Part shown: in pieces, positions 19,817-53,812 of the stretch | Layout: the number at the start of each line of letters is the position of its first letter | Position numbering within the stretch: position 1 is the first letter of the stretch | Origin: an uncultured Desulfovibrio sp. | Lineage (GTDB): Bacteria; Desulfobacterota; Desulfovibrionia; Desulfovibrionales; Desulfovibrionaceae | NCBI GenBank assembly: GCA_913063155.1 | Contig: CAJXYU010000007.1 | Location: forward strand, 124,001-188,000 | Length of the DNA: 64,000 nucleotides | Direction: 5' to 3' | Position numbers and translations under genes: made by a program | Notes under the pieces: generated by a model | What the model saw: only the letters and a program-made list of their open reading frames with translations | The model's database searches: none | What the model was told of the DNA's origin: nothing

Positions 19817-20278
19817 TCAGCGTTTTTGCACGTACGCCGATTGTCTGCTGATGAGGGCGGCGAGCGCCACGCACCCCATGACCATGACCAACCCGAAGTG
19901 GGTCCATTCGATGGCCAGGATTGCGTCGGGATGGAGGGTCACGCCGGGCAGGTTGCGGTAGACTCGCAGCAGGCCGGAGAGGATGATGCCCGCCAGGATG
20001 ATTGCGCGGGTCGTTCCCCATGCCGTGAGCCTGATGCGGTCCTTCCATTGCCTGAACCAGTTGGTCAGGATCAGGGCCGCAAGGAAGAGCAGCACGGCCG
20101 CGAAGATGTAATGCAGCTTGTGCACCAGGAAAAAGTCACCGGTCCAGGCCATGCCCGGAATGTCGGTGATGAAGTAGCGCCTTGTCAGCGGCATCTGCAT
20201 CATGCCCGTGGCGGCCAGGGCGGTCATGGTGGCGACGAAGAGCCTGCTCAGCCAAGGGGAAACGATCCTATCTTTCAT
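19817..20278 (-). CDS. Small four-helix cytochrome b membrane subunit
   Basis: A 153-residue integral membrane protein starting at MKDRIVSPWLSR; in-frame sequence further upstream belongs to the overlapping ferredoxin gene. Four hydrophobic segments are visible (about 10-30, 50-75, 90-112, 120-145). Histidines suitable as haem ligands occur in LVHKLHYIFA and WTHFGLVM. This is the layout of cytochrome b subunits that pass electrons between the quinone pool and a periplasmic iron-sulfur protein. It overlaps the ferredoxin gene by 11 bases, so the two are surely a pair. Confidence 0.8.
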   Translation of the reverse strand: MKDRIVSPWLSRLFVATMTALAATGMMQMPLTRRYFITDIPGMAWTGDFFLVHKLHYIFAAVLLFLAALILTNWFRQWKDRIRLTAWGTTRAIILAGIILSGLLRVYRNLPGVTLHPDAILAIEWTHFGLVMVMGCVALAALISRQSAYVQKR

Positions 20279-21296
20279 TGCCGTCCTCCTTGGGACCATT
20301 CTTTTCTTCGCCGAACAGGGCCGCTCCCACGCCCAGCATGCCGGCGGCGATTCCCGCCACCGGGGCCAGCAGGGTGGCCGTGGCCAGATTTGTCTCATCG
20401 GCCATGACGTCCTTCACCGGTTGCAGATGCGGCCTGCCCTTGCCCTTTGATTTCGTTTTTCCAAGAGCCTTGTCGAGCTTGTCGAACGGCGCCGGTGAAA
20501 CATAGATGGTGTTGGTTCCGCCGTTTTCCTCCAGCCCGTAGATGTAGCCGTCCGTCTCTGCGGCCAGCTTCCTGGCCTGTTCGATAATTTCCGCTCTCGG
20601 GCCGATGGTCTGGACGTTTTCGGGACAGACATCGATGCAGGCGGGCAGTTCTCCCCGGGCTACCAACTGGTGACAACGGTCGCACTTGTACATGACCCCG
20701 TTGCCCGCCAGGCGGGGCAGGAGATGCAGGTAGAGCCCCACCCCGGACTGGCGCTGGGGAATGTGCCAAGGGCACACGGCCCGGCATTTGGCTCCGCCCA
20801 TGCACAACTTGTCGCTGATGCGGGTGATGCCGTTCTGCTGCTTGTTGGCCGCGCCGAACGGGCACATGTTGGCGCAGGGCGGGTTCCGGCAGTGCATGCA
20901 TCGGCGGGGGATGTTGATTTCCAGCATCTCGCCCTTGTGCTCCACCTCGGCGGTCTGGATGAAGAGCCAGTTGTAGGGCGTCAGCCGGTCTTCCACGTCG
21001 CGTTTTTCCGACCAGTCCTCGTTTTTGGCCCGTCTGGAGGGTATGGGATCGGGAAACGGTTTCTTGGGTTCCGGGAATTTGGCGGCGTTGGATTCGCGGC
21101 AGGCGTTGACGCACTCGCCGCAGCCGATACATTTGGAAAGATCAAGCAGGGTGGCCAGTTCTCCGTCGTCCGGTCCCGGCGTTCCGTCCTGAGCCATGGC
21201 CGCGCCGGACGGCACGAGCAGGCCCGCGCCGCTCACTCCAAGGGCCTTGAGAAAGCCCCGGCGACTCACGGTTGATGGATTTTTCGGTTCTGACAT
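20268..21296 (-). CDS. Tat-exported four-cluster ferredoxin-like electron-transfer subunit (HybA/DsrO type)
   Basis: A 342-residue periplasmic iron-sulfur protein. The N-terminus carries a twin-arginine signal (SRRGFLKALG, residues 11-20). Cysteine groups CIGCGECVNAC, CMHCRNPPCANMC, CMGGAKCRAVC and CDRC...CIDVC indicate up to four cubane clusters. A C-terminal hydrophobic segment (about 308-328) would anchor it to the membrane beside the cytochrome b. Proteins of this type link quinones to periplasmic enzymes such as hydrogenases, formate dehydrogenases or sulfur oxidoreductases; no catalytic subunit is encoded next to it, so the partner is unknown. A CsoR-like operator lies 36 bases upstream. 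Confidence 0.88.
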   Translation of the reverse strand: MSEPKNPSTVSRRGFLKALGVSGAGLLVPSGAAMAQDGTPGPDDGELATLLDLSKCIGCGECVNACRESNAAKFPEPKKPFPDPIPSRRAKNEDWSEKRDVEDRLTPYNWLFIQTAEVEHKGEMLEINIPRRCMHCRNPPCANMCPFGAANKQQNGITRISDKLCMGGAKCRAVCPWHIPQRQSGVGLYLHLLPRLAGNGVMYKCDRCHQLVARGELPACIDVCPENVQTIGPRAEIIEQARKLAAETDGYIYGLEENGGTNTIYVSPAPFDKLDKALGKTKSKGKGRPHLQPVKDVMADETNLATATLLAPVAGIAAGMLGVGAALFGEEKNGPKEDGNER

Positions 21297-21655: not shown

Positions 21656-21863
21656 CCATAGACGCACCTCGTTGATTTGCCAGTGCCTTTGCATCGGGCG
21701 ATGCCTCATGCCCCTGCGCATGGGGTCACTTTCGGTGGCGGGGGACTTTCTTGGTATACGCTGCCGAGTGAAAGACGCGATTATCAACAGCCACGGCTTT
21801 CCCCTTTGTCCGGGTGTTGCTATGAAAAGGCAATCATCGATCACCCGAACAAAGGACGGACTT

Positions 21864-22889
21864 ATGTTTTCAGCTCTTTGTCGGCTTCTGGCAGGCTCAC
21901 TGTTTCTGGGCATCGTGCTCCTGGTGCAAACGGTCCAGGCGGGCAACCCGCTTCCCGTTTCCCCCAAAGCGGTCAAACGCGCGTTGGCTGAAATTCACGC
22001 CCGGTATCAGCCCGACGATTCGGGCAAGGTCGCTGACTATATCCCGGCACTCGCCAAAGCCGACCCTCATCACTTCGGATTGGCCCTCGCCACCGCGGAT
22101 GGAAGGATTTTTGCCGTCGGCGACAGCGACGTACCGTTCGCCATCGAATCCATTTCCAAGATTTTCGCCCTGGCGCTCGCTTTCGAGGATGCCGGCCGCA
22201 AAGCCATTCTCGACAACGTGGGAGTCTACCACACAGGGCTTCCGTTCAACTCCATGATCGCCTCCGACGTCCGGCAGGTGAAACTGCAGAACCCTTTTGT
22301 CAATGTGGGCGCCATAACGACGACCAGTTTCATCAAGGGTCGGAATTCCGCGGAAAAGTGGCAACGGCAGATGAAGACGTTCAATCTGTTTGCCGGACGG
22401 CGGCTGACTGTCAACCGGGAGGTCTTCGATTCCGAGGAGGCCACGAACCAGCATAATCGCGCATTGGCCTGGCTGTTCAAGAGCTTCGGCTATCTCCAGG
22501 ACGATCCCATGGATGCGATTACCCGCTATACCCGCGCCTGTTCGGTCAACGTGACCTGCAAGGACCTGGCCGTCATGGGAGCCTGCCTGGCCAACGGAGG
22601 CCTGAACCCCATGACCGGTAAACGGGCCGTCAGGAAGGAGTTCGTGCGGGACATTCTGTCGGTCATGGCCATCACCGGTCTGTACGACTCGTCCGGCCCG
22701 TGGTTTTTCCATGTGGGCCTGCCGGGCAAGAGCGGCGTCGGCGGCGGCATCCTGGCCGTGGTCCCCGGCAAATTCGCCGTAGCCGCCTATTCGCCGCCCC
22801 TCGACCGGTTCGGCAACTCGGTTCGCGGCGTCAAGGCCGTGGAAGCGTTGTCAAAGCTGTGGGGACTGCATGTTTTCGAGGTAAAGTAA
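21864..22889 (+). CDS. glsA: Glutaminase A with signal peptide
   Basis: A 341-residue serine-dependent glutaminase of the beta-lactamase-like fold, hydrolysing L-glutamine to glutamate and ammonia. Key parts are the SxxK motif ESISK (Ser96, Lys99), HTGLPFNSM, PFVNVGAITTTS and the C-terminal LPGKSGVGGGILAV. The start at 21864 has AGGA at 7 bases and gives a clean Sec signal peptide (MFSALCRLLAGSLFLGIVLLVQTVQA), which is unusual because GlsA enzymes are normally cytoplasmic. An ATG at 21822 is possible but would add a charged N-terminal extension. Thiaminase I follows after 84 bases and may be on the same transcript. Confidence 0.9.
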   Translation: MFSALCRLLAGSLFLGIVLLVQTVQAGNPLPVSPKAVKRALAEIHARYQPDDSGKVADYIPALAKADPHHFGLALATADGRIFAVGDSDVPFAIESISKIFALALAFEDAGRKAILDNVGVYHTGLPFNSMIASDVRQVKLQNPFVNVGAITTTSFIKGRNSAEKWQRQMKTFNLFAGRRLTVNREVFDSEEATNQHNRALAWLFKSFGYLQDDPMDAITRYTRACSVNVTCKDLAVMGACLANGGLNPMTGKRAVRKEFVRDILSVMAITGLYDSSGPWFFHVGLPGKSGVGGGILAVVPGKFAVAAYSPPLDRFGNSVRGVKAVEALSKLWGLHVFEVK

Positions 22890-22973
22890 GCAGAAACGTT
22901 GTTTTTTGAAGAAGCACCGGTCATTGCCTGTTGCGTTGAAAACATTCTTTTCACCCGAACATTGGAGCAGCAT

Positions 22974-24314
22974 ATGAAACGGCGGTTATTCCTTTTCTTT
23001 TTCGGCATTCTTTTTCTGACATCGGCCCTGGCGGACGGTGCGTCCGCCCAGACACTCAAGGTGGCGCTCTATCCGGACGTGCCGCGTATCGAACAGTTCA
23101 AGGCCGCCATCGAAGCGGCCTGGGCCGGAGTGGAACCGGGCGTGTCCATCGAATGGCAGGATTCCTGGGACGGCGGCTATGAAGCCGACCCTTCGGCCGA
23201 TTTCGACGTCTATGTGTTCGACGCCCTGTTCCTGAGCTACTTCAACGCCAAAGGCTGGCTGTACAACATCCCCAAGGCGGACGTGGCGAATCTTGATGAT
23301 TTTTTGGACTATGCGGCCAAGGGAGTGGAGTCCGGCGACAAGGTCATGGGCATTCCTCAGCTGGGCTGCACCACGGTGCTCTTCCACCACGCGGATGATG
23401 CGGCCATGAACAAGGCCGTGACCCTGGACGACGTGGGCAAGGCCTTGGGCGCCTGCACCTACTACACGCGGACACCCGAAGGCGGCACGGGCCTCATGGC
23501 CGATTTCTCCAATGACTCGGCCAACGCGGGGTTCTACGTGCAGAGCCTGGAATGCGATCAGGCGAAATTTCCGGTGAAGCTGCCGTATTCGCAGAGCGAG
23601 GTGGACCCGGTCATCATCGGCTACATCCGCCAAGTGTTGTCCATGTCCAGCTTTCAGGACGCCCTGTACGAGGCTCCCCAATCCTACCAGCGGGCCTACT
23701 GGTTCGGGCAGGGGCACGGCCGGGCCTACATCGACTACACCGAGTCCTTGTCCGTGATTCCCGCGGACCGGTACGACAACATCGCCTTCAAGGTCATGCC
23801 CTGGGCCGACAACCGGGAAGGTGTCAAATCGCCGCTCTTCTATTCGGACGTCATCGGCGTACATGGCTCCACGGCCGCGCGCGGCACACGGGATCTGGCC
23901 GTGAAGCTGGCCAACCTCATGGCCTCCCGGGATGTGATCGTGCAATGTCTAGGTCCTTATGACGGCAAGGGGCCGCAATACCTCATGCCCGCACGGACCA
24001 GCGCTTTCGAGATTTTGGGAGCGAAGTTCCCCATGTATGAAAAAATCTACGAAATGGTGAAATCCATTACTCCCATCATGTTCGACATCGGGTCGGACGC
24101 CCGCAACTGGTTCAATACGATGCAGGCCGCGCTTTCCAACGATTACAAGGCCGACCCCGCCTGCTACTGCGACCATGACGCAGGCCCCATTTTCAACCAG
24201 CGGCAGGCCGAGCGGGCCTGCCTGCGGGCGTGCTCCCAGTTCAATGGCTGGAACGGCCAGTGGACCACCAGGGGCGGCACCTCCTATTGCGGCTGCAATC
24301 AGGCCTGTCCATAG
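22974..24314 (+). CDS. Exported thiaminase I (thiamine pyridinylase) with Cys-rich C-terminal domain
   Basis: Thiaminase I displaces the thiazole of thiamine with a nucleophile and is built on a periplasmic-binding-protein fold. This 446-residue copy starts at MKRRLFLF behind GGAG and has a Sec signal (cleavage near ASA-QT). The catalytic Cys is Cys132 in GIPQLGCTTVLF and the general-base Glu is Glu257 in YIDYTESL. Other segments matching the Paenibacillus enzyme as I remember it are LKVALYPDVP, WFGQGHGRAYI, PLFYSDVI and GPQYLMPAR. The last ~55 residues hold eight cysteines and read AGPIFNQRQAERAC...NGWNGQWTT...CGC, resembling the mannan-binding MVL lectin domain. A thiamine-binding transport protein is excluded by the Cys/Glu pair. 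The second copy follows downstream. Confidence 0.88.
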   Translation: MKRRLFLFFFGILFLTSALADGASAQTLKVALYPDVPRIEQFKAAIEAAWAGVEPGVSIEWQDSWDGGYEADPSADFDVYVFDALFLSYFNAKGWLYNIPKADVANLDDFLDYAAKGVESGDKVMGIPQLGCTTVLFHHADDAAMNKAVTLDDVGKALGACTYYTRTPEGGTGLMADFSNDSANAGFYVQSLECDQAKFPVKLPYSQSEVDPVIIGYIRQVLSMSSFQDALYEAPQSYQRAYWFGQGHGRAYIDYTESLSVIPADRYDNIAFKVMPWADNREGVKSPLFYSDVIGVHGSTAARGTRDLAVKLANLMASRDVIVQCLGPYDGKGPQYLMPARTSAFEILGAKFPMYEKIYEMVKSITPIMFDIGSDARNWFNTMQAALSNDYKADPACYCDHDAGPIFNQRQAERACLRACSQFNGWNGQWTTRGGTSYCGCNQACP

Positions 24315-24333
24315 AAAATACATCTCGAAAAAC

Positions 24334-24360
24334 GGCCCGCTTCGGCGGGTCTTTTTTTTC
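24334..24360 (+). terminator. Terminator after the first thiaminase gene
   Basis: CCCGC-TTCG-GCGGG stem with a TTCG tetraloop followed by CTTTTTTTTC, 20 bases after the stop codon. Confidence 0.9.
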
Positions 24361-24506
24361 AGGGCGCCTGCGGGCCACCTATTCGCAGTACAGGTATACC
24401 ATGAAAGTATAGCTTGTTTGATTTTATATCTCTCGTGGGATAGGATATTCGTATTCTGTCCATTGTCCCCCAGGCTCACTCTCGTCATCATCTTCTGGAG
24501 CAGCGC

Positions 24507-25763
24507 ATGAACGGACAAATCCCTTTCCCCGAATCCGGTTGTCCCAACTTTTCGCGACAAACCCGCAAGGGCGCGAAGCCCGAGGTGCTCACCGTGGCCC
24601 TGTATCCGATCATGCCCCGGGTGAACCAGTTCAAGGAGGTCATAGAAAAGGCCTGGGCCCGGCTGGAGCCGGATGTGGGCATCCGCTGGTGCGACAAGTG
24701 GGAGGGCGGATATGAACGCCTTCCCTTGCCCGAGTATGACGTCTTCGTGTTCGACGCCCTGTTTCTGACCTATTACGAACTCCAGGGCTGGCTGCATCAC
24801 ATTCCACTGAAAGATGTGGACGATTTCGGAGATTTTCAGGACTACGCGGCCCACGGGGTGCTGGCGGGCGAAAAAGTGCTCGGCGTTCCGCAATTGGGCT
24901 GCACCACGGTGCTCTTCCATCGCGCGGACGACGGGCCCATGAACGAAGCCGAGACCCTGGAGGAGGTGGTGGAGGCCATGGGCGCCCGCACCTATTGTTC
25001 CCGGGTTCCGGACGGACGGGTCGGGCTCATGACCGATTTTTCCAACGAGTCGGTCACTGCCGGGTTCTACCTCCAGAGCCTGCAATGCGACCGCACCGAG
25101 TTGCCGTTGAATTTCCCATACTCCCTGAAGGAGGCCGATCCCCGGGTCATGGATTGCATTCATCAGGTGCTTTCCATGGCCTGCTACGAGGACGCCTTTT
25201 ACCAGGCTCCCCGTTTTTATCAGCGCGCCGCCTGGTTCGGGCAGGGGCACGGCCGGGCCTACATCGATTATTCCGAGTCCCTGGCCGTCATCCCCGAGGA
25301 CCAGTACGACGATATCGCCTTCAAGGTCATGCCCTGGGCCAACAATCGGGAGGGAATCCGACGGCCCGTGTTCTATACGGACATCATCAGCGTGCATACT
25401 GCCACGGCCGAGCGCCGGACAACGGACCTGGCGGTCAGGCTGGCCAACCTCATGGGGACGGCGGAGGTCATCATGGATTGCCTGGGGCCGTACCAGGGCA
25501 AGGGGCCGCAGTATCTCATCCCCGCCCGGCAAAGCGTCTTCGACGACCTGGTCGTTCAGTACCCGGTCTACGACAGGATGCAGGGCATGATGCAGGCCAT
25601 AGACCCGGTGGTCTTCGACGCCGGTCCCGACGCGCGCCGCTGGTTCTGGGCCATGCAGAAGACCCTGACCGATGAATTCAGAAATGTCTGCTTTCTGTCC
25701 TCGGGAAGGGAACGGGGCCGGACCGGAATCGTCGATCCGGCGCTTCCCGAGCCGGTGGGCTAG
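24507..25763 (+). CDS. Second thiaminase I paralogue, without signal peptide
   Basis: A 418-residue paralogue of the preceding gene, with identical spacing to the catalytic residues (Cys132 in GVPQLGCTTVLF, Glu257 in YIDYSESL). It also has the WFGQGHGRAYI and GKGPQYLIPAR segments. The N-terminus (MNGQIPFPESGCPNFSRQ) is polar and cannot be a Sec signal; an in-frame stop at 24441 and no ATG upstream rule out a longer start. The lectin-like tail is absent; the C-terminus is a short unrelated tail. The ribosome-binding site TGGAGCAGC is the same as in copy one. It is probably cytoplasmic, so the pair may act on external and internal thiamine or its analogues. It converges with ridA, ending 1 base from the ridA stop. 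Confidence 0.85.
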   Translation: MNGQIPFPESGCPNFSRQTRKGAKPEVLTVALYPIMPRVNQFKEVIEKAWARLEPDVGIRWCDKWEGGYERLPLPEYDVFVFDALFLTYYELQGWLHHIPLKDVDDFGDFQDYAAHGVLAGEKVLGVPQLGCTTVLFHRADDGPMNEAETLEEVVEAMGARTYCSRVPDGRVGLMTDFSNESVTAGFYLQSLQCDRTELPLNFPYSLKEADPRVMDCIHQVLSMACYEDAFYQAPRFYQRAAWFGQGHGRAYIDYSESLAVIPEDQYDDIAFKVMPWANNREGIRRPVFYTDIISVHTATAERRTTDLAVRLANLMGTAEVIMDCLGPYQGKGPQYLIPARQSVFDDLVVQYPVYDRMQGMMQAIDPVVFDAGPDARRWFWAMQKTLTDEFRNVCFLSSGRERGRTGIVDPALPEPVG

Positions 25764-26331: not shown

Positions 26332-26407
26332 GGGCGGTTAGCTCAGTTGGGAGAGCATCGGCCTTACAAGCCGAGGGTCACAGGTTCGAGCCCTGTACCG
26401 CCCACCA
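26332..26407 (+). tRNA. tRNA-Val (anticodon TAC)
   Basis: A 76-base cloverleaf: acceptor GGGCGGT pairs with ACCGCCC, D-arm AGCTCAGTTGGGAGAGC, anticodon loop CTTACAA giving TAC, T-arm CAGGTTCGAGCCCTG, and encoded CCA. Confidence 0.97.
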
Positions 26408-26414
26408 TAAACGC

Positions 26415-26491
<77 letters not shown>

Positions 26492-26688: not shown

Positions 26689-27468
26689 CTAAAACATCTC
26701 ATCGACAGTGAAATTCTTAACCAAAAAGATTTTTAGGCTTTTTAAGGTGTCCTCAATCACAACTATATGAGTCTCTAAAAAGTCCTTAAGGTCTAATGCC
26801 AATTGGATGTCCCAGCCTTCGTAATCTTTTCTGATGAATAAGCTATTGATGTGGTCACCATCAGCATAATAGATTTGTCCCCATCTTACCATTTCAGCAA
26901 TAGGGTCATCAGTATTGATAGGGATGTCTTTGAGCTTTTCTCTGGCTTCCATGTTGATCATTGAGGTTGGCCAGTCAGGGTATTCAGCTCCGTTTTGAAT
27001 CTTGTGTAAGATTTGTTGCGACAGTTCTTCATTAGGAATCTTTAGGGAAATCCTGCTTATTTGATTTCTGTCATAAGAAATGTCCAGCATTTCTGGAAAT
27101 TTGTATATGATTGAGCCTTTAATCGCGATGATCCAGTTAAGATCAGCAAGCAGTTTTTCATCATAGATTTCAAGTGATTCTCCGAGGCTAGATACGCTTG
27201 ATATAAGTCGAGTCGAGCAGGAGTCTATCGCTCGACTTTGGATTCCAATTTCTTGATAAATCCACAATGGATCAGATTCGGCTTCTGACTGGCAGGATGC
27301 TTCGTATAGCTTTTGAGAGACATCAAGCAGTGAGTCGAGGATGCTGTATAACTCTTTGAAGAGTTTGGCTGTCTTTCTGCGAGTGCTTTGCCTAGAAATT
27401 TTGTCCGCGACAACGGCTGGCAGAATAAGTTCTACAGCCTTTGCAATCAAGCTTGCGCCGGTTGACAT
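26689..27468 (-). CDS. Unknown helical protein, third gene of the island operon
   Basis: A 259-residue protein I do not recognise. The N-terminal ~30 residues are hydrophobic with a Gly/Ala pattern (GASLIAKAVELILPAVVADKIS), possibly a membrane-associating helix. The middle (residues 35-120) is predicted helical with a KLFKELYSILDSLLDVSQKLYEAS amphipathic repeat. The C-terminus is mixed and ends in VKNFTVDEMF. No catalytic motif is evident. It begins 12 bases after the stop of the deoxyribosyltransferase/TIR-like gene, and the three genes from 29289 to 26689 form one operon. By analogy with defence operons it could be a membrane effector, but nothing in the sequence proves this. Confidence 0.75.
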   Translation of the reverse strand: MSTGASLIAKAVELILPAVVADKISRQSTRRKTAKLFKELYSILDSLLDVSQKLYEASCQSEAESDPLWIYQEIGIQSRAIDSCSTRLISSVSSLGESLEIYDEKLLADLNWIIAIKGSIIYKFPEMLDISYDRNQISRISLKIPNEELSQQILHKIQNGAEYPDWPTSMINMEAREKLKDIPINTDDPIAEMVRWGQIYYADGDHINSLFIRKDYEGWDIQLALDLKDFLETHIVVIEDTLKSLKIFLVKNFTVDEMF

Positions 27469-27480
27469 GTTGGAACTTCT

Positions 27481-28239
27481 CTATGAGCGGTTTTTGTTGA
27501 GGTAGTCGATTCGTTTCACCAACTCATTCCTTAGCGTATTCAGCCCCTCGTTGTTGTTGAGGTACATAACGTACCGATGATGCTGGAGATCAAATGGGAT
27601 GTCGTCTTTGCTTTGAGTGATAGGGATAACATGCTTCCCTAAAGTATGAGCTATTCCAGCTTCATAGAATACATTTGGGTTCTTACCTGTGAAATCACAG
27701 ACCACGATATGTGATTGATAGATCAGACTAAATACATCTTGAATCAAGACGGAATGTTGCCATATATCGCCGGCGCGTTTGCAGATCAGGAAGTTTGCTT
27801 CAACTGAACTTTTAATTGCTTGATAGACTCCAGAGAAGGCTGGGCTAAAAGGCATCATAACCGATACTAGGTTAGGATTTGGATCATCGCTTGGGACTTC
27901 AAATACTGAGGGGTTGAAAACTATTTTCGGAGTGTTTGTTTTGATACTAGAAACATTCGTTCCGCTTTCACCTGAACCTGTAGTGATATAGTTCTCAATG
28001 AATTCTAGATTCCCAATATCTCTTTCAACAATGGAAATAAGCACATCTAGTACGCAGCCAGAATAATCTGGATCACCCCAATGTAAGCTTCGAAGAAGCC
28101 TTGGGTGGTTCTGGATAATGTCAGAGCAGTTTGTCAGAATCCCAAGCTCAAGCCAGTTTTCATCTGTGAATTCATTTACGGCATAATCCTTTAAAGGGAG
28201 TATTTTCTTTCTGTCGTCGGCGTTTACGTACATTGTCAT
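27481..28239 (-). CDS. Nucleoside deoxyribosyltransferase/TIR-like protein with N-terminal helical domain
   Basis: A 252-residue protein in two parts. Residues about 20-90 form a small helical domain (TDENWLELGILTNCSDIIQNHPRLLRSLHWGDPDYSGCVLDVL), a type I have seen N-terminal to effector domains. Residues 120-250 form a Rossmann-like domain beginning LVSVMMPFSPAFSGVYQAIK and containing CDFTGKNPNVFYEAGIAHTLGKHVIPIT. That pattern, with a Glu in FYEAGIAH, matches nucleoside 2-deoxyribosyltransferase-like and related TIR-like domains that bind or cleave nucleotides, including NAD. Substrate is unknown. It directly abuts the stop codon of the upstream gene. Confidence 0.75.
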   Translation of the reverse strand: MTMYVNADDRKKILPLKDYAVNEFTDENWLELGILTNCSDIIQNHPRLLRSLHWGDPDYSGCVLDVLISIVERDIGNLEFIENYITTGSGESGTNVSSIKTNTPKIVFNPSVFEVPSDDPNPNLVSVMMPFSPAFSGVYQAIKSSVEANFLICKRAGDIWQHSVLIQDVFSLIYQSHIVVCDFTGKNPNVFYEAGIAHTLGKHVIPITQSKDDIPFDLQHHRYVMYLNNNEGLNTLRNELVKRIDYLNKNRS

Positions 28240-29289
28240 TTATTTACCTGTGTCTAGAAAAGAGAGGAGGTCTCCCTCTCTTTGTACTTTTTCAATAATC
28301 GGTTTAACGCTGAGCTTAGCGAGTTCCGCTTCAGTTAGAGGTGGAGAGATTGTGACTCCCTTGAACTTCAACACTCGTTTAACTCTCCATTGGGGTTGTT
28401 CGGAATCATCTTTGATCATTTGAACTTCGATGAGGTCATCAACTGCTGGCTTGAGGTTGTTGACGATTGCGTGTTGTCTGAATTTTTGGTCATCAATTTC
28501 AAAGGTTCTTTCTGCGTGGGTCTTCTTGTCACCCAAGAGGTATCCAGTCCATCCTCGCCTACTGGTGAGTTTTATGCTGACAGGGGAAATTACCTTTATT
28601 TCACCTTGATAGAAGCCTGTTTCAACCTCGATATCCTCTTCATTTTGGGAGTCGTAAATGTACTCAGGGAAGGTAGAACGGTCGATTATTCGATTTCCAT
28701 CCAATGATATCCTAGAAATAGTTTCATCTTCTTCAATAGCTTTGAATATTTTGTTTTTGCCATTTTGAAGTCTTCGCCTTTGGCGTTTGTATTCTATGTC
28801 CGAGGATAGCGGCTCTTTCGGTGCTTTTTGGTCTAAGTACAAACTAATAAGAGTCGATAGGCAGTGTGTATGTGTAACGGTTTTGACCCCTTTCGCTGTC
28901 TGCTGCCCTAAGATGCTAAACAGTTCTGCAATGTCTCTTCCAACTAGTTCTTTGCAAAATGAGTTCAAAAAACTAGGTGCACCGATGCCTACGATAGTGC
29001 TGCATATTGCGCCTGCGATGATCACAAAGTTGGCTTCGAAGCAACCATCCTTTGGTGGACGTAGGTATACTTCGGCACGATTCCCCTCTGGCAGAAGTCC
29101 GTCAAAAACTACATCAGAAATGTCTTGAATTCCGTTAGCAACCTCAGAGAGAGTCCTCGCTGAGATCATGTTGTTTGGAACGTCAAAATGTAATTCTATA
29201 TGATCCTGCAGGTACGCTTCTAGAGGGTTGTCTCGTAGCTTGCTTAGAATGGCTTCAAGGGACTTGTTTGGGCTTTGAGGATGTTTCAT
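28240..29289 (-). CDS. Unknown protein, first gene of the three-gene island operon
   Basis: A 349-residue protein without a family I can name. The start has AAGGA upstream. A hydrophobic stretch FVIIAGAICSTIVGIGAPSFLNSF (about 88-112) may be a membrane segment. The C-terminal half (about 200-345) is beta-rich with GEIKVISPVSIKLTSRRGWTGYLLG and EVQMIKDDSEQPQWRVKRVLKF, which could be a small beta-barrel, ligand-binding part. It is followed without a gap by the deoxyribosyltransferase/TIR-like gene, suggesting that the products act together, for example as regulator or sensor and effector. Confidence 0.75.
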   Translation of the reverse strand: MKHPQSPNKSLEAILSKLRDNPLEAYLQDHIELHFDVPNNMISARTLSEVANGIQDISDVVFDGLLPEGNRAEVYLRPPKDGCFEANFVIIAGAICSTIVGIGAPSFLNSFCKELVGRDIAELFSILGQQTAKGVKTVTHTHCLSTLISLYLDQKAPKEPLSSDIEYKRQRRRLQNGKNKIFKAIEEDETISRISLDGNRIIDRSTFPEYIYDSQNEEDIEVETGFYQGEIKVISPVSIKLTSRRGWTGYLLGDKKTHAERTFEIDDQKFRQHAIVNNLKPAVDDLIEVQMIKDDSEQPQWRVKRVLKFKGVTISPPLTEAELAKLSVKPIIEKVQREGDLLSFLDTGK

Positions 29290-29352
29290 TAGTGTCCTTT
29301 GATATTTAATTCGTTATCAACGTACTCCTCCGCTTATAAAATGCCAAGGGCT

Positions 29353-29394
29353 CAAAAAAAAGAAAGGGTTGGAACTTGTGGTCCAGCCCTTTCT
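29353..29394 (-). terminator. Terminator after the DUF3644 gene
   Basis: On the minus strand AGAAAGGGCTGGA / TCCAACCCTTTCT forms a 13-bp stem with one G-T pair, followed by TTTTTTTGAG. It separates the two island operons. Confidence 0.88.
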
Positions 29395-29406
29395 TCGAAT
29401 TGGTTG

Positions 29407-30390
29407 TTATTCATATCGTGCTTTGTGCTTCTGACAATGCTCCCGCACTAAGCGCACCCAATGTTCGTACCAATGCCAGTGTTTACCTGCTACCATTACG
29501 CCGAATCCTTTTTTGGGATTTTGTGCATCGTGTTTTCGCCAAAGCTGAGTATGGTTGTACATGTTGAATTTGGTGAAACCTTCCCGATTCATCATCTCGA
29601 CTATTTGGCTCGGAAGGTACTTTGCTTTTTCAGCTTCTTTGATGATGGTGTAGTCTTTGTTGATTTTGCTCGCCAACGGATCATCGGCTTTGACAAATTC
29701 AATCACTCGGTCTGCTTGGTTCTTCCGATTGGCTGCTTTAGGTACAAAAAGAATACGATATGCATACTGCTGACTGGCATATTCTTCATCGGTCAGGCCC
29801 TCATCGAAGTTCAGAACATATGTTTTGAGGCTTTTGGGCAGGTCCTCATATTCTTCGAGTAGTTCCTTTTGCTCGTCATCAATAGTCGAAAATTGCAAGC
29901 TGAATGATAGATGCTTGTCTATACCATGTTTTTCGCCAAATAGAGATTTGATGTATCCATTGTAGTTGAGACAACATGCTTGAAACCGAGCACTGAGGAC
30001 ATCGTCGATTCTTGATGTCATCTGGTGTTCAATCTCATGTCGTAAGCCAATCAAGAACCTAAGATTGTTGGCGGTGTCTTTGTCGATTGGGGAGTCCTTG
30101 TCATTCAGGCAACGTTCAAGCTCCCAATATTTATATGCACCATGCTTTGTCCTGTCGTACCGCTTTCTGTTTCCGTTTTGAGTGTAGTATTTATAAGTGG
30201 TTTTTTGAGATCGGTAGTAAGCATGAAGCAGGTACGTCCACGAAATGATCATCAAGACGACATAGCTTTCAGCCTTAAATGTTATTCCTGGGTTGTTAAA
30301 TATTTGAACCGCTGCAAGGGCAGCCTCGCGTGACTTCTTGATGAGTTCGTCTTTGATCGATCCCCATTTGCGTATCCGTTTCCCGGCCAT
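29407..30390 (-). CDS. DUF3644 protein with HEPN-like RxxxxH motif
   Basis: A 327-residue protein matching the DUF3644 pattern: SREAALAAVQIFNNPGITFKAESYVVLMIISWTYLLHAYY at the N-terminus, then YKYWELERCLND and NNLRFLIGLRHEIEHQM. The RHEIEH segment (about residues 116-121) fits the R-x4-H signature of HEPN ribonucleases, so RNA cleavage is a reasonable inference. The C-terminal part (about 230-327) carries a basic, aromatic-rich region (HWHWYEHWVRLVREHCQKH). The ATG at 30390 has GAGGAG at 8 bases, and lies 2 bases after the dprA-like stop. It is the last gene of the PRTase-DprA-DUF3644 operon. Confidence 0.85.
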   Translation of the reverse strand: MAGKRIRKWGSIKDELIKKSREAALAAVQIFNNPGITFKAESYVVLMIISWTYLLHAYYRSQKTTYKYYTQNGNRKRYDRTKHGAYKYWELERCLNDKDSPIDKDTANNLRFLIGLRHEIEHQMTSRIDDVLSARFQACCLNYNGYIKSLFGEKHGIDKHLSFSLQFSTIDDEQKELLEEYEDLPKSLKTYVLNFDEGLTDEEYASQQYAYRILFVPKAANRKNQADRVIEFVKADDPLASKINKDYTIIKEAEKAKYLPSQIVEMMNREGFTKFNMYNHTQLWRKHDAQNPKKGFGVMVAGKHWHWYEHWVRLVREHCQKHKARYE

Positions 30391-30392
30391 CG

Positions 30393-31154
30393 TCAACGCT
30401 CCTCACTAGAGCTAAGGTCCAATTTTCCTTCGGTGATCACTCTATGCTTCTGGGAACGATGTTGCTCCATTGCATTGAAAATAGGGACCATGTTTGCTCG
30501 CCCGGTGCTTTCGCTTTTATTAAGCTTCAGTCCACCAAGCTCAATTAAGGTCTTCCCTTCAAGAGAAATGTTCATGTCGGCATGGTTCACTACAAAGAGA
30601 GGAATACGCATTTTTAGTGAGTCTTTACCTGCTGCGATGGTGCCACCTTTTTCCCCCGCTTCGATCACAATCATTGCGGACACCAAAGAAAGGATAGTTC
30701 TATTTCTCTTCATGGCGTTCCAGGTTTGCCAGTTGGCATCCGGCGGAAATTCGCTAATAATAAGAGTTCGTTTCCAATCCCAAACTTCTTTTAACTCTTT
30801 CACTATTCTGTACTTGTTGATCCCCTCTGGAAGAACAAGAACTGTCTTGCCGCCTGCTTTAAGCGCGGCTTTATGGACCATTCTATCAACACCTCTTGCA
30901 TTGCCGGAAAGGACAACTTTATCGTTTTCAACTGCTTGTTCAGCACAGTCTTTTGCTATCGAAAGTCCTTTTTCGGATACATTCCTTGAGCCACAGAAAC
31001 CTAAAGAGTCTTCTTCCAACAGGTCTAAGTTGCCAATGACATAGAGTGTTTTAGGAGCTTTTTCTCCTAATCGGAGTTGAAGCCTTTTGGGGTAGTTTGA
31101 CGAGTCGATACTGATGGTCTCAGTTTGGGGGATGTTGTCGAATTCGGTTGTCAT
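30393..31154 (-). CDS. DprA/SMF-family Rossmann protein
   Basis: A 253-residue protein with the SMF/DprA core: GFCGSRNVSEKG (phosphate-binding loop), VLSGNARGVDRMVHKAAL, LIISEFPPDANW, and MKRNRTILSLVSAMIVIEAGEKGGTIAAG. Chromosomal DprA (about 300-400 residues, loading RecA on single-stranded DNA during transformation) normally has a SAM and a DML1 domain. Here the sequence begins almost directly with the Rossmann core, and ends with a short unrelated tail, so it is a stand-alone SLOG-type nucleotide- or DNA-binding protein. It sits 12 bases after the PRTase gene and 2 bases before the DUF3644 gene, implying a dedicated function with them rather than natural competence. Confidence 0.85.
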   Translation of the reverse strand: MTTEFDNIPQTETISIDSSNYPKRLQLRLGEKAPKTLYVIGNLDLLEEDSLGFCGSRNVSEKGLSIAKDCAEQAVENDKVVLSGNARGVDRMVHKAALKAGGKTVLVLPEGINKYRIVKELKEVWDWKRTLIISEFPPDANWQTWNAMKRNRTILSLVSAMIVIEAGEKGGTIAAGKDSLKMRIPLFVVNHADMNISLEGKTLIELGGLKLNKSESTGRANMVPIFNAMEQHRSQKHRVITEGKLDLSSSEER

Positions 31155-31166
31155 AAAATCCCTATA

Positions 31167-31730
31167 CTATTTTTTCTCAGTGTTATCATCATCCCGTCGC
31201 GACTTAACTATTGCTACGCCAAGAACGTGAGCTGCTCCAGCCTGCTGCAAATCCATGGCTGTATAATGCATTGTTGATCCCGATTGATATAAGTCATCAA
31301 GCAAAATGACGACTTTCCCCGCTAAATCTTTTTCTGGGTCCTCAACGGTCAGTTCAGAGCCTGCTAGGGTTGCCCACTTGTCTTCAACGGTTTCATCTTG
31401 AAGTGATTTGTCTTTGTTAACAAACTTAAGCTTCTCAGTGAAATCGCTAATACCAAGTGCTTCTGCGACCCCTTTGCCTATTATTTGGGGGAGACATGTT
31501 TCTTTCCCGGTGCTTGGGGGGATGCACGCGATTCCATCGGCGTGTTTATAAAATGGAAGTTCTTGAATAGTCTCGACGATTTTATCGGTTAGGTATTTGA
31601 TCGAATCTTGGTCATTGTTTTCTTTTGCCTCATGCTCATGCTTGCCTGTTTCTGTATAATCGTCAGAACCAGATACGAAGTTCATGTCCAAGGCTATCAT
31701 GCAAGGCAATAGGGAGCGGATAAAAACCAT
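31167..31730 (-). CDS. Phosphoribosyltransferase-like protein, 5' end probably lost
   Basis: The 187 residues from the first ATG contain a type I PRTase fold with the PRPP loop VVILLDDLYQSGSTM (about residues 138-152). Upstream of that ATG the frame stays open and reads as believable protein (ARLEPDKREALESFVEKF) back to about 31795, where IS-derived sequence begins. The true N-terminus therefore seems cut off by the IS. PRTases in conflict systems are thought to make or break nucleotide-like signals; the substrate here is unknown. It is the first gene of the operon with the DprA-like and DUF3644 genes, so the operon's own promoter may also have been lost. Confidence 0.72.
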   Translation of the reverse strand: MVFIRSLLPCMIALDMNFVSGSDDYTETGKHEHEAKENNDQDSIKYLTDKIVETIQELPFYKHADGIACIPPSTGKETCLPQIIGKGVAEALGISDFTEKLKFVNKDKSLQDETVEDKWATLAGSELTVEDPEKDLAGKVVILLDDLYQSGSTMHYTAMDLQQAGAAHVLGVAIVKSRRDDDNTEKK

Positions 31731-53612: not shown

Positions 53613-53812
53613 GTGCGGCGAAAGCGGTTGCAGGTTGCGCGCATCTGCTATACAGAGAAAGCCGGTCGGCAGTTCACCGAGGCGTCGCCGCCCCTTTGGG
53701 GAGCTAAACCTGCCATCGTTTTCCCATTCGACACTTATCCCCGTGCCGAGTCGGAAGTCGGCGACCACCGGCAATCCCTTCTCTGCGGTAGGCGCGAAAG
53801 AGAGGATAAGTC

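Follow-up and report, generated by a model that had tools for sequence, protein, structure and literature searches.

The thiaminase I of Burkholderia thailandensis is reportedly proposed (Sannino 2018) to cleave thiamine and reuse the halves. Here, we describe two adjacent genes, copy 1 and copy 2, in a window of 64,000 nucleotides from an uncultured Desulfovibrio sp., a probable sulfate reducer (contig CAJXYU010000007.1, positions 124,001 to 188,000), which are predicted to encode two thiaminase I paralogues, one with an export signal and one without. The locus differs from the B. thailandensis case in that a thiamine-making bacterium has a pair of the genes and one product of the pair is apparently internal, and the Burkholderia and Paraburkholderia loci compared in this study (L015, L017, and L042) share a lectin-type tail with copy 1.

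The thiaminase I of Paenibacillus thiaminolyticus and Clostridium botulinum is represented by the structures 2thi and 4kys, on which the match of copy 1 reaches 363/379 and 418/427, respectively, that is, near the chain ends, and there is therefore no room in them for a lectin-type tail. Copy 2 has no export signal, unlike the Clostridium botulinum and Paenibacillus enzymes. As well, the Paenibacillus gene is situated in a thiamine/bacimethrin operon, as described in PMC5627462, whereas here the neighbouring proteins scanned gave no thiamine family and the window gave no TPP riboswitch over the Rfam threshold. The myxobacterial enzymes CcThi1 and MXAN_4523 are likewise exported Gram-negative thiaminase I, with the Cys/Glu pair at C148 and E269, and for myxobacterial thiaminase I the identity is 17.95% with 2thi and 19.18% with 4kys (PMC10499793). 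According to the same paper, recombinant enzymes from myxobacteria and a clostridium showed activity, and CcThi1 did so even when made without its signal peptide; among 138 myxobacterial sequences, 3 lack a signal peptide of any kind, and antagonism by the secreted enzymes is experimentally supported. These enzymes are mostly lipoproteins and occur in vesicles, and a lectin domain goes unmentioned in the accessible text, whereas copy 1 is lectin-tailed.

For the tail itself, the closest described protein is the Microcystis viridis lectin MVL (1zhq, PF12151), with which it shares the AGP motif region, an alanine-rich helix, and GQWT. MVL consists of two repeats without an enzyme, while in copy 1 a single repeat, in which cysteines are conserved, is joined to a thiaminase I. 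In the literature searched, no paper joins 'thiaminase' with 'mannan-binding', papers with 'thiaminase I' and 'lectin' treat other subjects, judging by titles and abstract openings, and searches on thiaminase with Desulfovibrio, sulfate-reducing, or paralog gave no lead. A cyanobacterial lectin survey employs PF12151, and 'thiamin' is absent from its main text as far as this was accessible. Within this literature, the lectin-thiaminase I fusion and the internal copy look undescribed.

Identity of the two copies and the lectin-type tail

The features of the gene pair are as follows.

22974..24314, + strand: thiaminase I copy 1, 446 amino acids, comprising a Sec-type signal, the enzyme core, and an MVL-type lectin domain at the C-terminus
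22974..23051, + strand: putative Sec-type signal peptide in residues 1-26 of copy 1, ending in ASA-Q, cleavage site judged by eye
23367..23369, + strand: predicted catalytic Cys132 of copy 1, aligned to residue 113 of 2thi, invariant in the 29 rows of alignment A1
23742..23744, + strand: predicted catalytic Glu257 of copy 1, aligned to residue 241 of 2thi, invariant in the same 29 rows
24153..24311, + strand: domain of the MVL (mannan-binding lectin) type in copy 1, residues 394-446, about 50 residues, single repeat
24507..25763, + strand: thiaminase I copy 2, 418 amino acids, with the catalytic core and a polar N-terminus, without the lectin domain
24900..24902, + strand: predicted catalytic Cys132 of copy 2, aligned to residue 113 of 2thi, invariant in the 29 rows of A1
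25275..25277, + strand: predicted catalytic Glu257 of copy 2, aligned to residue 241 of 2thi, invariant in the same 29 rows

On the NCBIfam profile thiaminase_BcmE (TIGR04541, cut-off 175), copy 1 scored 349.8 bits and copy 2 scored 291.7 bits, and on Pfam PF22141 (cut-off 27) the scores were 121.4 and 106.2 bits, respectively. At E 0.001, the only PDB sequences matched by either copy were the thiaminase I entries 2thi, 3thi, 4thi, and 4kys, and a Pfam scan of both copies at the same threshold gave no transport binding-protein family. In fold, the predicted structures of both resemble known thiaminase I structures more closely than those of transport binding proteins, and since family profiles and fold comparison both favour thiaminase I, a transport binding-protein identity was rejected. 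Weak matches to binding-protein families at E 0.01 do occur among the homologues (PF01547 in 53/97, PF13416 in 23/97), as would be expected given that the fold is shared. A whole-genome search returned copies 1 and 2 as the sole thiaminase I matches. The reading of the initial annotation, namely tandem thiaminase I paralogues with the pair Cys132/Glu257 numbered alike in both, is thus confirmed by TIGR04541, PF22141, the PDB matches, and the alignment to 2thi, and the outcome that it had set against this reading, better profile scores for transport binding proteins, clearly failed to appear.

The Sec signal that it had assigned to the first gene is borne out as well, the best 10-residue hydropathy mean in the N-terminus of copy 1 being 2.95. 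In copy 2, the first 26 residues are polar and the corresponding value is -0.20; an upstream start that would restore a hidden signal was rejected, since the open frame offers only ATT and CTG among the codon kinds looked for, neither of them signal-like. The earlier description of a polar N-terminus with no alternative start therefore holds. In the predicted structure of copy 2, the predicted local distance difference test score is under 50 at residues 1-9, 11-19, and 400-418. Because copy 2 has neither signal nor lectin domain and its core is intact, the protein would be expected to remain cytoplasmic.

The tail of copy 1 is cysteine-rich and carries the motifs AGPIFNQ and WNGQWTT. Compared singly with 1zhq it gave E 0.037, while a profile built from 20 such tails matched MVL (1zhq) alone in the PDB when values up to E 1 were allowed, at 1.3e-14 and on both MVL repeats; by these profile matches, the tail family is homologous to MVL. 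PF12151 matched 80 of 97 homologues at E 0.01 or better (best 1.4e-15), a threshold that copy 1 just misses, and relative P0013 reached 57.4 bits. In copy 1, one MVL stretch was matched, not two repeats as in MVL. The structure-match lists for whole copy 1 (Foldseek; VIA) held no MVL entry among the 50 matches listed, which is no evidence against MVL because the enzyme domain fills the list. By its homology, the tail may bind glycans, which makes it possible that the lectin-type domain offers the exported copy a target.

The tail motif was found in 32 of the 40 named loci, 31 by pattern and L042 by reading its printed end, where the motif is visible although the protein is short and escaped the pattern. 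It was not seen in four Bacillota loci, Parabeggiatoa, Thermoleophilia, and Aquabacterium, and in the remaining locus, from Acidobacteriota, the reading frame is broken and the tail not judgeable. Together with the PF12151 matches among the homologues, this suggests that a lectin-type tail is the usual state among copy 1 relatives; an alignment and motif check of copy 2 did not reveal it. Of the earlier interpretation, the paralogues and their contrast in export stand, while the claim that the enzyme is known from a few Gram-positives does not, the glutaminase beside the pair looks incidental, and the MVL-type tail of copy 1 had been overlooked.

Duplication, distribution, and constraint on copy 2

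A phylogeny of both copies, which the initial annotation had suggested, was run with 44 sequences, in which copies 1 and 2 are sisters (support 96/92), indicating that the thiaminase I gene is duplicated within this lineage. The branches are 0.13 for copy 1 and 0.92 for copy 2, the latter seven times longer, and the placement of the pair among other genus sequences is weaker (83/70). Three features around the two starts were considered.

22963..22971, + strand: TGGAGCAGC, ribosome-binding region of the copy 1 ATG, identified by sequence and by 30-base upstream likeness
24496..24504, + strand: TGGAGCAGC, identical stretch upstream of the copy 2 ATG, identified in the same way
24334..24359, + strand: intrinsic-terminator-like stem and T-run between the genes, a consensus match only, in a region with 8 such sites versus 5.5 in shuffles

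The 30-base stretches upstream of both ATGs are more alike than shuffles (p 0.0015), and TGGAGCAGC upstream of copy 2 is probably left over from the duplication event. With this stretch at both starts and the upstream likeness, the copy 2 ATG is probably ancestral. When the first 26 codons of the two copies were aligned as DNA with gaps, the result also beat shuffles (p 0.003; 0.0105 without the ATG). The idea that the copy 2 N-terminus is an old signal in a shifted frame was considered but not supported: it did not match any translated frame of copy 1 (p 0.475 to 0.719).

Among 36 genus genomes, six matched thiaminase I at E 0.001, five of them over the cut-off, and only this genome had two matches over the cut-off. 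Five of 199 genomes in a family sample matched and one, this genome, exceeded the cut-off; the other four positive genus genomes were evidently not drawn into that sample. A database search found no homologue of copy 2 over 56% identity besides itself and copy 1. Beyond the family, the 40 named loci span cyanobacteria, Burkholderia, alphaproteobacteria, KSB1, and Phycisphaerae, and the NCBI name 'thiamine pyridinylase' is already present in Salidesulfovibrio onnuriiensis and in a Pseudodesulfovibrio metagenome-assembled genome (MAG). With this spread, and with myxobacterial enzymes already tested experimentally (PMC10499793), the restriction to a few Gram-positives is outdated.

A hydrophobic N-terminus is present in 84 of the 97 homologues; nine were not judgeable (two too short, seven without the motif used), and the four under the threshold are copy 2, P0096, P0019, and P0088, of which the last two look truncated. 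For the 40 named loci, whose starts were picked in favour of a signal, the count is 38, with L045 (Aquabacterium) lacking it and L042 not judgeable. Taken with the three signal-less sequences among 138 from myxobacteria, these counts indicate that signal-less thiaminase I is rare, not unique; an export signal is common in the family but does not define it. L045 (Aquabacterium sp. A7-Y) and P0096 are distant thiaminase I sequences without a hydrophobic N-terminus or the lectin-tail pattern, joined on long branches. Elsewhere, in an uncultured Desulfovibrio MAG (L010 6001-6240, contig of G028), a truncated, stop-ended thiaminase I fragment lies upstream of an intact gene. It was rejected as an orthologue of copy 2 because its nearest relative is P0003 (66%), and tandem duplication has therefore probably occurred independently, at least twice in the genus.

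Over 364 codons, the two copies differ by a nonsynonymous rate (dN) of 0.278 and a synonymous rate (dS) of 0.867 (NG86; 0.280 and 0.845 by LWL85), giving dN/dS 0.32. Neutral expectations were taken from 200 simulations run to an equal number of base changes: copy 2 has 0 stops in its 418 codons, while the neutral runs over the 364 aligned codons averaged 8.4 with a minimum of 2, and the observed protein identity of 0.59 exceeds the neutral average of 0.46 and maximum of 0.51. Moreover, 67 of 74 conserved columns are identical between the copies versus 148 of 290 others (p 5.7e-11). Copy 2 keeps 29 of the 30 columns invariant across the other 28 sequences of A1, and of the columns conserved at 90% or more it keeps 66/75 against 72/75 for copy 1, six comparators ranging from 69/79 (P0012) to 74/75. 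The GC content at third codon positions (GC3) is equal in both copies. In 90% database clusters, copy 2 comprises three sequences and copy 1 one sequence, each on 12 contigs. On balance, the constraint on copy 2, as read from its sequence, is real but probably weaker.

A proposed divided role and its rivals

We lean, by a little, towards an arrangement in which a lectin-tailed enzyme works outside the cell and a stripped sister works inside, with salvage as the inside role. The location, activity, glycan binding, and salvage role of the copies are what we infer from their sequences. The sequences themselves show the family, the active-site residues, the duplication, and the constraint: copy 1 has retained the usual secreted form, in which a Sec-type signal precedes the enzyme core and a single-repeat MVL-type tail follows it, and copy 2 has shed the signal and the lectin domain and kept an intact, constrained core. 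Outside, copy 1 may cleave extracellular thiamine, with Cys132 displacing the thiazole, Glu257 serving as the base, and a nucleophile taking the pyrimidine, while its lectin-type domain may anchor the enzyme on mannose-type glycans. The producer would not be starved, because it makes its own thiamine via ThiC, Thi4, ThiE, and ThiL, and free thiamine is no intermediate. Inside, copy 2 would cleave imported free thiamine or its analogues, and the freed thiazole would go to ThiM and ThiE and then to ThiL; neither a thiamine pyrophosphokinase nor TenA was found in this genome.

The genome encodes ThiC, two ThiE, and ThiL, has ThiM paired with ThiE, and holds one thiamine pyrophosphate (TPP) riboswitch, upstream of Thi4 and ThiE, among the 150 of 200 candidates scored. 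These thiamine genes make scavenging plausible. The de novo route gives thiamine monophosphate and then TPP, leaving free thiamine off-path, and a cytoplasmic thiaminase I with a preference for free thiamine would therefore be tolerable; by cleaving it, the cell could make use of thiamine taken up from outside. On contig C9 of the same genome, the thiM and thiE genes overlap (L093 7841-9342), and nearby reverse-strand frames (L093 11441-13637) resemble ethanolamine ammonia-lyase subunits by eye.

Several observations weigh against this arrangement. No thiamine families were recognised in the glutaminase upstream of copy 1 or among the 10 neighbouring proteins scanned, three of which had no Pfam match, no TPP riboswitch exceeded the Rfam threshold in the window, and no promoter-like site lies between the copies. 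PF12151 gave 19.1 bits on the tail of copy 1 and 16.2 on the whole protein, both under the cut-off of 25, and a lectin-like sequence alone is no proof of glycan binding. Thiamine pyrophosphokinase was not found in the genome, where ThiK-type kinase, ThiD, and transporters were not searched for. TenA was not found either, and it exceeded the cut-off in 0 of the 36 genus genomes, with one weak match; since it is missing genus-wide, its lack in this genome does not go hand in hand with the presence of copy 2, which weakens a species-specific replacement of TenA by copy 2. The long branch and three database variants of copy 2 also fit relaxed constraint. The fuller version, a split vitamin-B1 strategy in which a glycan-held exported thiaminase is paired with an internal sister that replaces TenA and pyrophosphokinase and feeds ThiM, ThiE, and ThiL, is rather doubtful.

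That copy 2 is a decaying duplicate, which lost its ends by chance under relaxed constraint and has no lasting function, is unlikely. Its longer branch, its fewer conserved columns, its three variants, and the absence of any other close homologue are consistent with decay, the L010 fragment shows that such thiaminase duplicates do degrade, and past constraint is compatible with a recent loss; on the other hand, copy 2 is stop-free where neutral runs are not, its dN/dS is low, its changes spare conserved sites, its GC3 is that of copy 1, nearly all invariant columns are kept, and conserved columns are kept in no greater proportion by the apparently normal P0012. We consider it quite unlikely that both copies are antagonistic, with copy 1 held on mannose-bearing algae, fungi, or oomycetes and copy 2 released by lysis or in vesicles. 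Such a role would cost a thiamine-making producer little, the MVL-type domains would fit glycan targeting, and myxobacterial thiaminase I, exported in outer-membrane vesicles, deprives Phytophthora of its thiamine (PMC10499793), but no eukaryotic target is known here, the release of copy 2 is unsupported by any link, and the enzymes of Xia et al. are mostly lipoproteins, with 'lectin' and 'mannan' occurring 0 times in the main text as accessible (PMC10499793).

Improbable, finally, is that copy 2, instead of acting in salvage, shields the cell from within by destroying toxic analogues of thiamine: natural antimetabolites exist, as in Paenibacillus the genes for thiaminase I lie alongside those for bacimethrin (PMC5627462), and copy 2 is expected inside the cell, where analogues act, but no antimetabolite genes were recognised among the same 10 neighbouring proteins.

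With one enzyme outside and one apparently inside a thiamine-making species, salvage and antagonism could be separated by single deletions. The prevalence of the lectin-type tail among the named loci suggests that glycan surfaces retain many such enzymes, and this would alter the view of their ecological effect. Should the split strategy be true, copy 2 would be a housekeeping enzyme, a thiaminase I that works in the cytoplasm, and the lectin-thiaminase I fusions would form a wide class of targeted vitamin-destroying proteins.

Genomic neighbourhood

Two genes precede copy 1 in the window.

20268..21296, - strand: 4Fe-4S protein, with a weak twin-arginine translocation signal match (20 bits, cut-off 22.7), a flank common to Salidesulfovibrio onnuriiensis
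21822..22889, + strand: glutaminase A, upstream of copy 1 (PF04960, 363.2 bits; start and export judged by eye)

The exported glutaminase that the initial annotation had mentioned beside the pair now looks incidental: among the loci examined, several with about 1.5 kb of flank, a glutaminase adjoining thiaminase was found in this genome only, and a conserved link was rejected for its absence from the other loci. In S. onnuriiensis, the thiaminase gene adjoins a block of 4Fe-4S protein, symporter, and Crp-like genes, as in this genome. The 4Fe-4S gene is present in all 36 of the 36 genus genomes, with thiaminase within 3 kb only here and in S. onnuriiensis; in three other thiaminase-positive genus genomes the two genes are on different contigs.

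Farther downstream, just past tRNA-Val and tRNA-Asp (26332-26491), a likely defence island occupies 26689-31730 on the - strand. It holds an AbiJ_NTD5 protein with a TIR-like stretch, PDC-S42, and PDC-S19 (DUF3644, E 9.1e-166), as well as a pair resembling PsyrA/ShosA and PsyrT/ShosT. The Rfam COG3860 cis-regulatory RNA was matched at 53663-53715 (+ strand) with 74.1 bits, the gathering score being 42.5.

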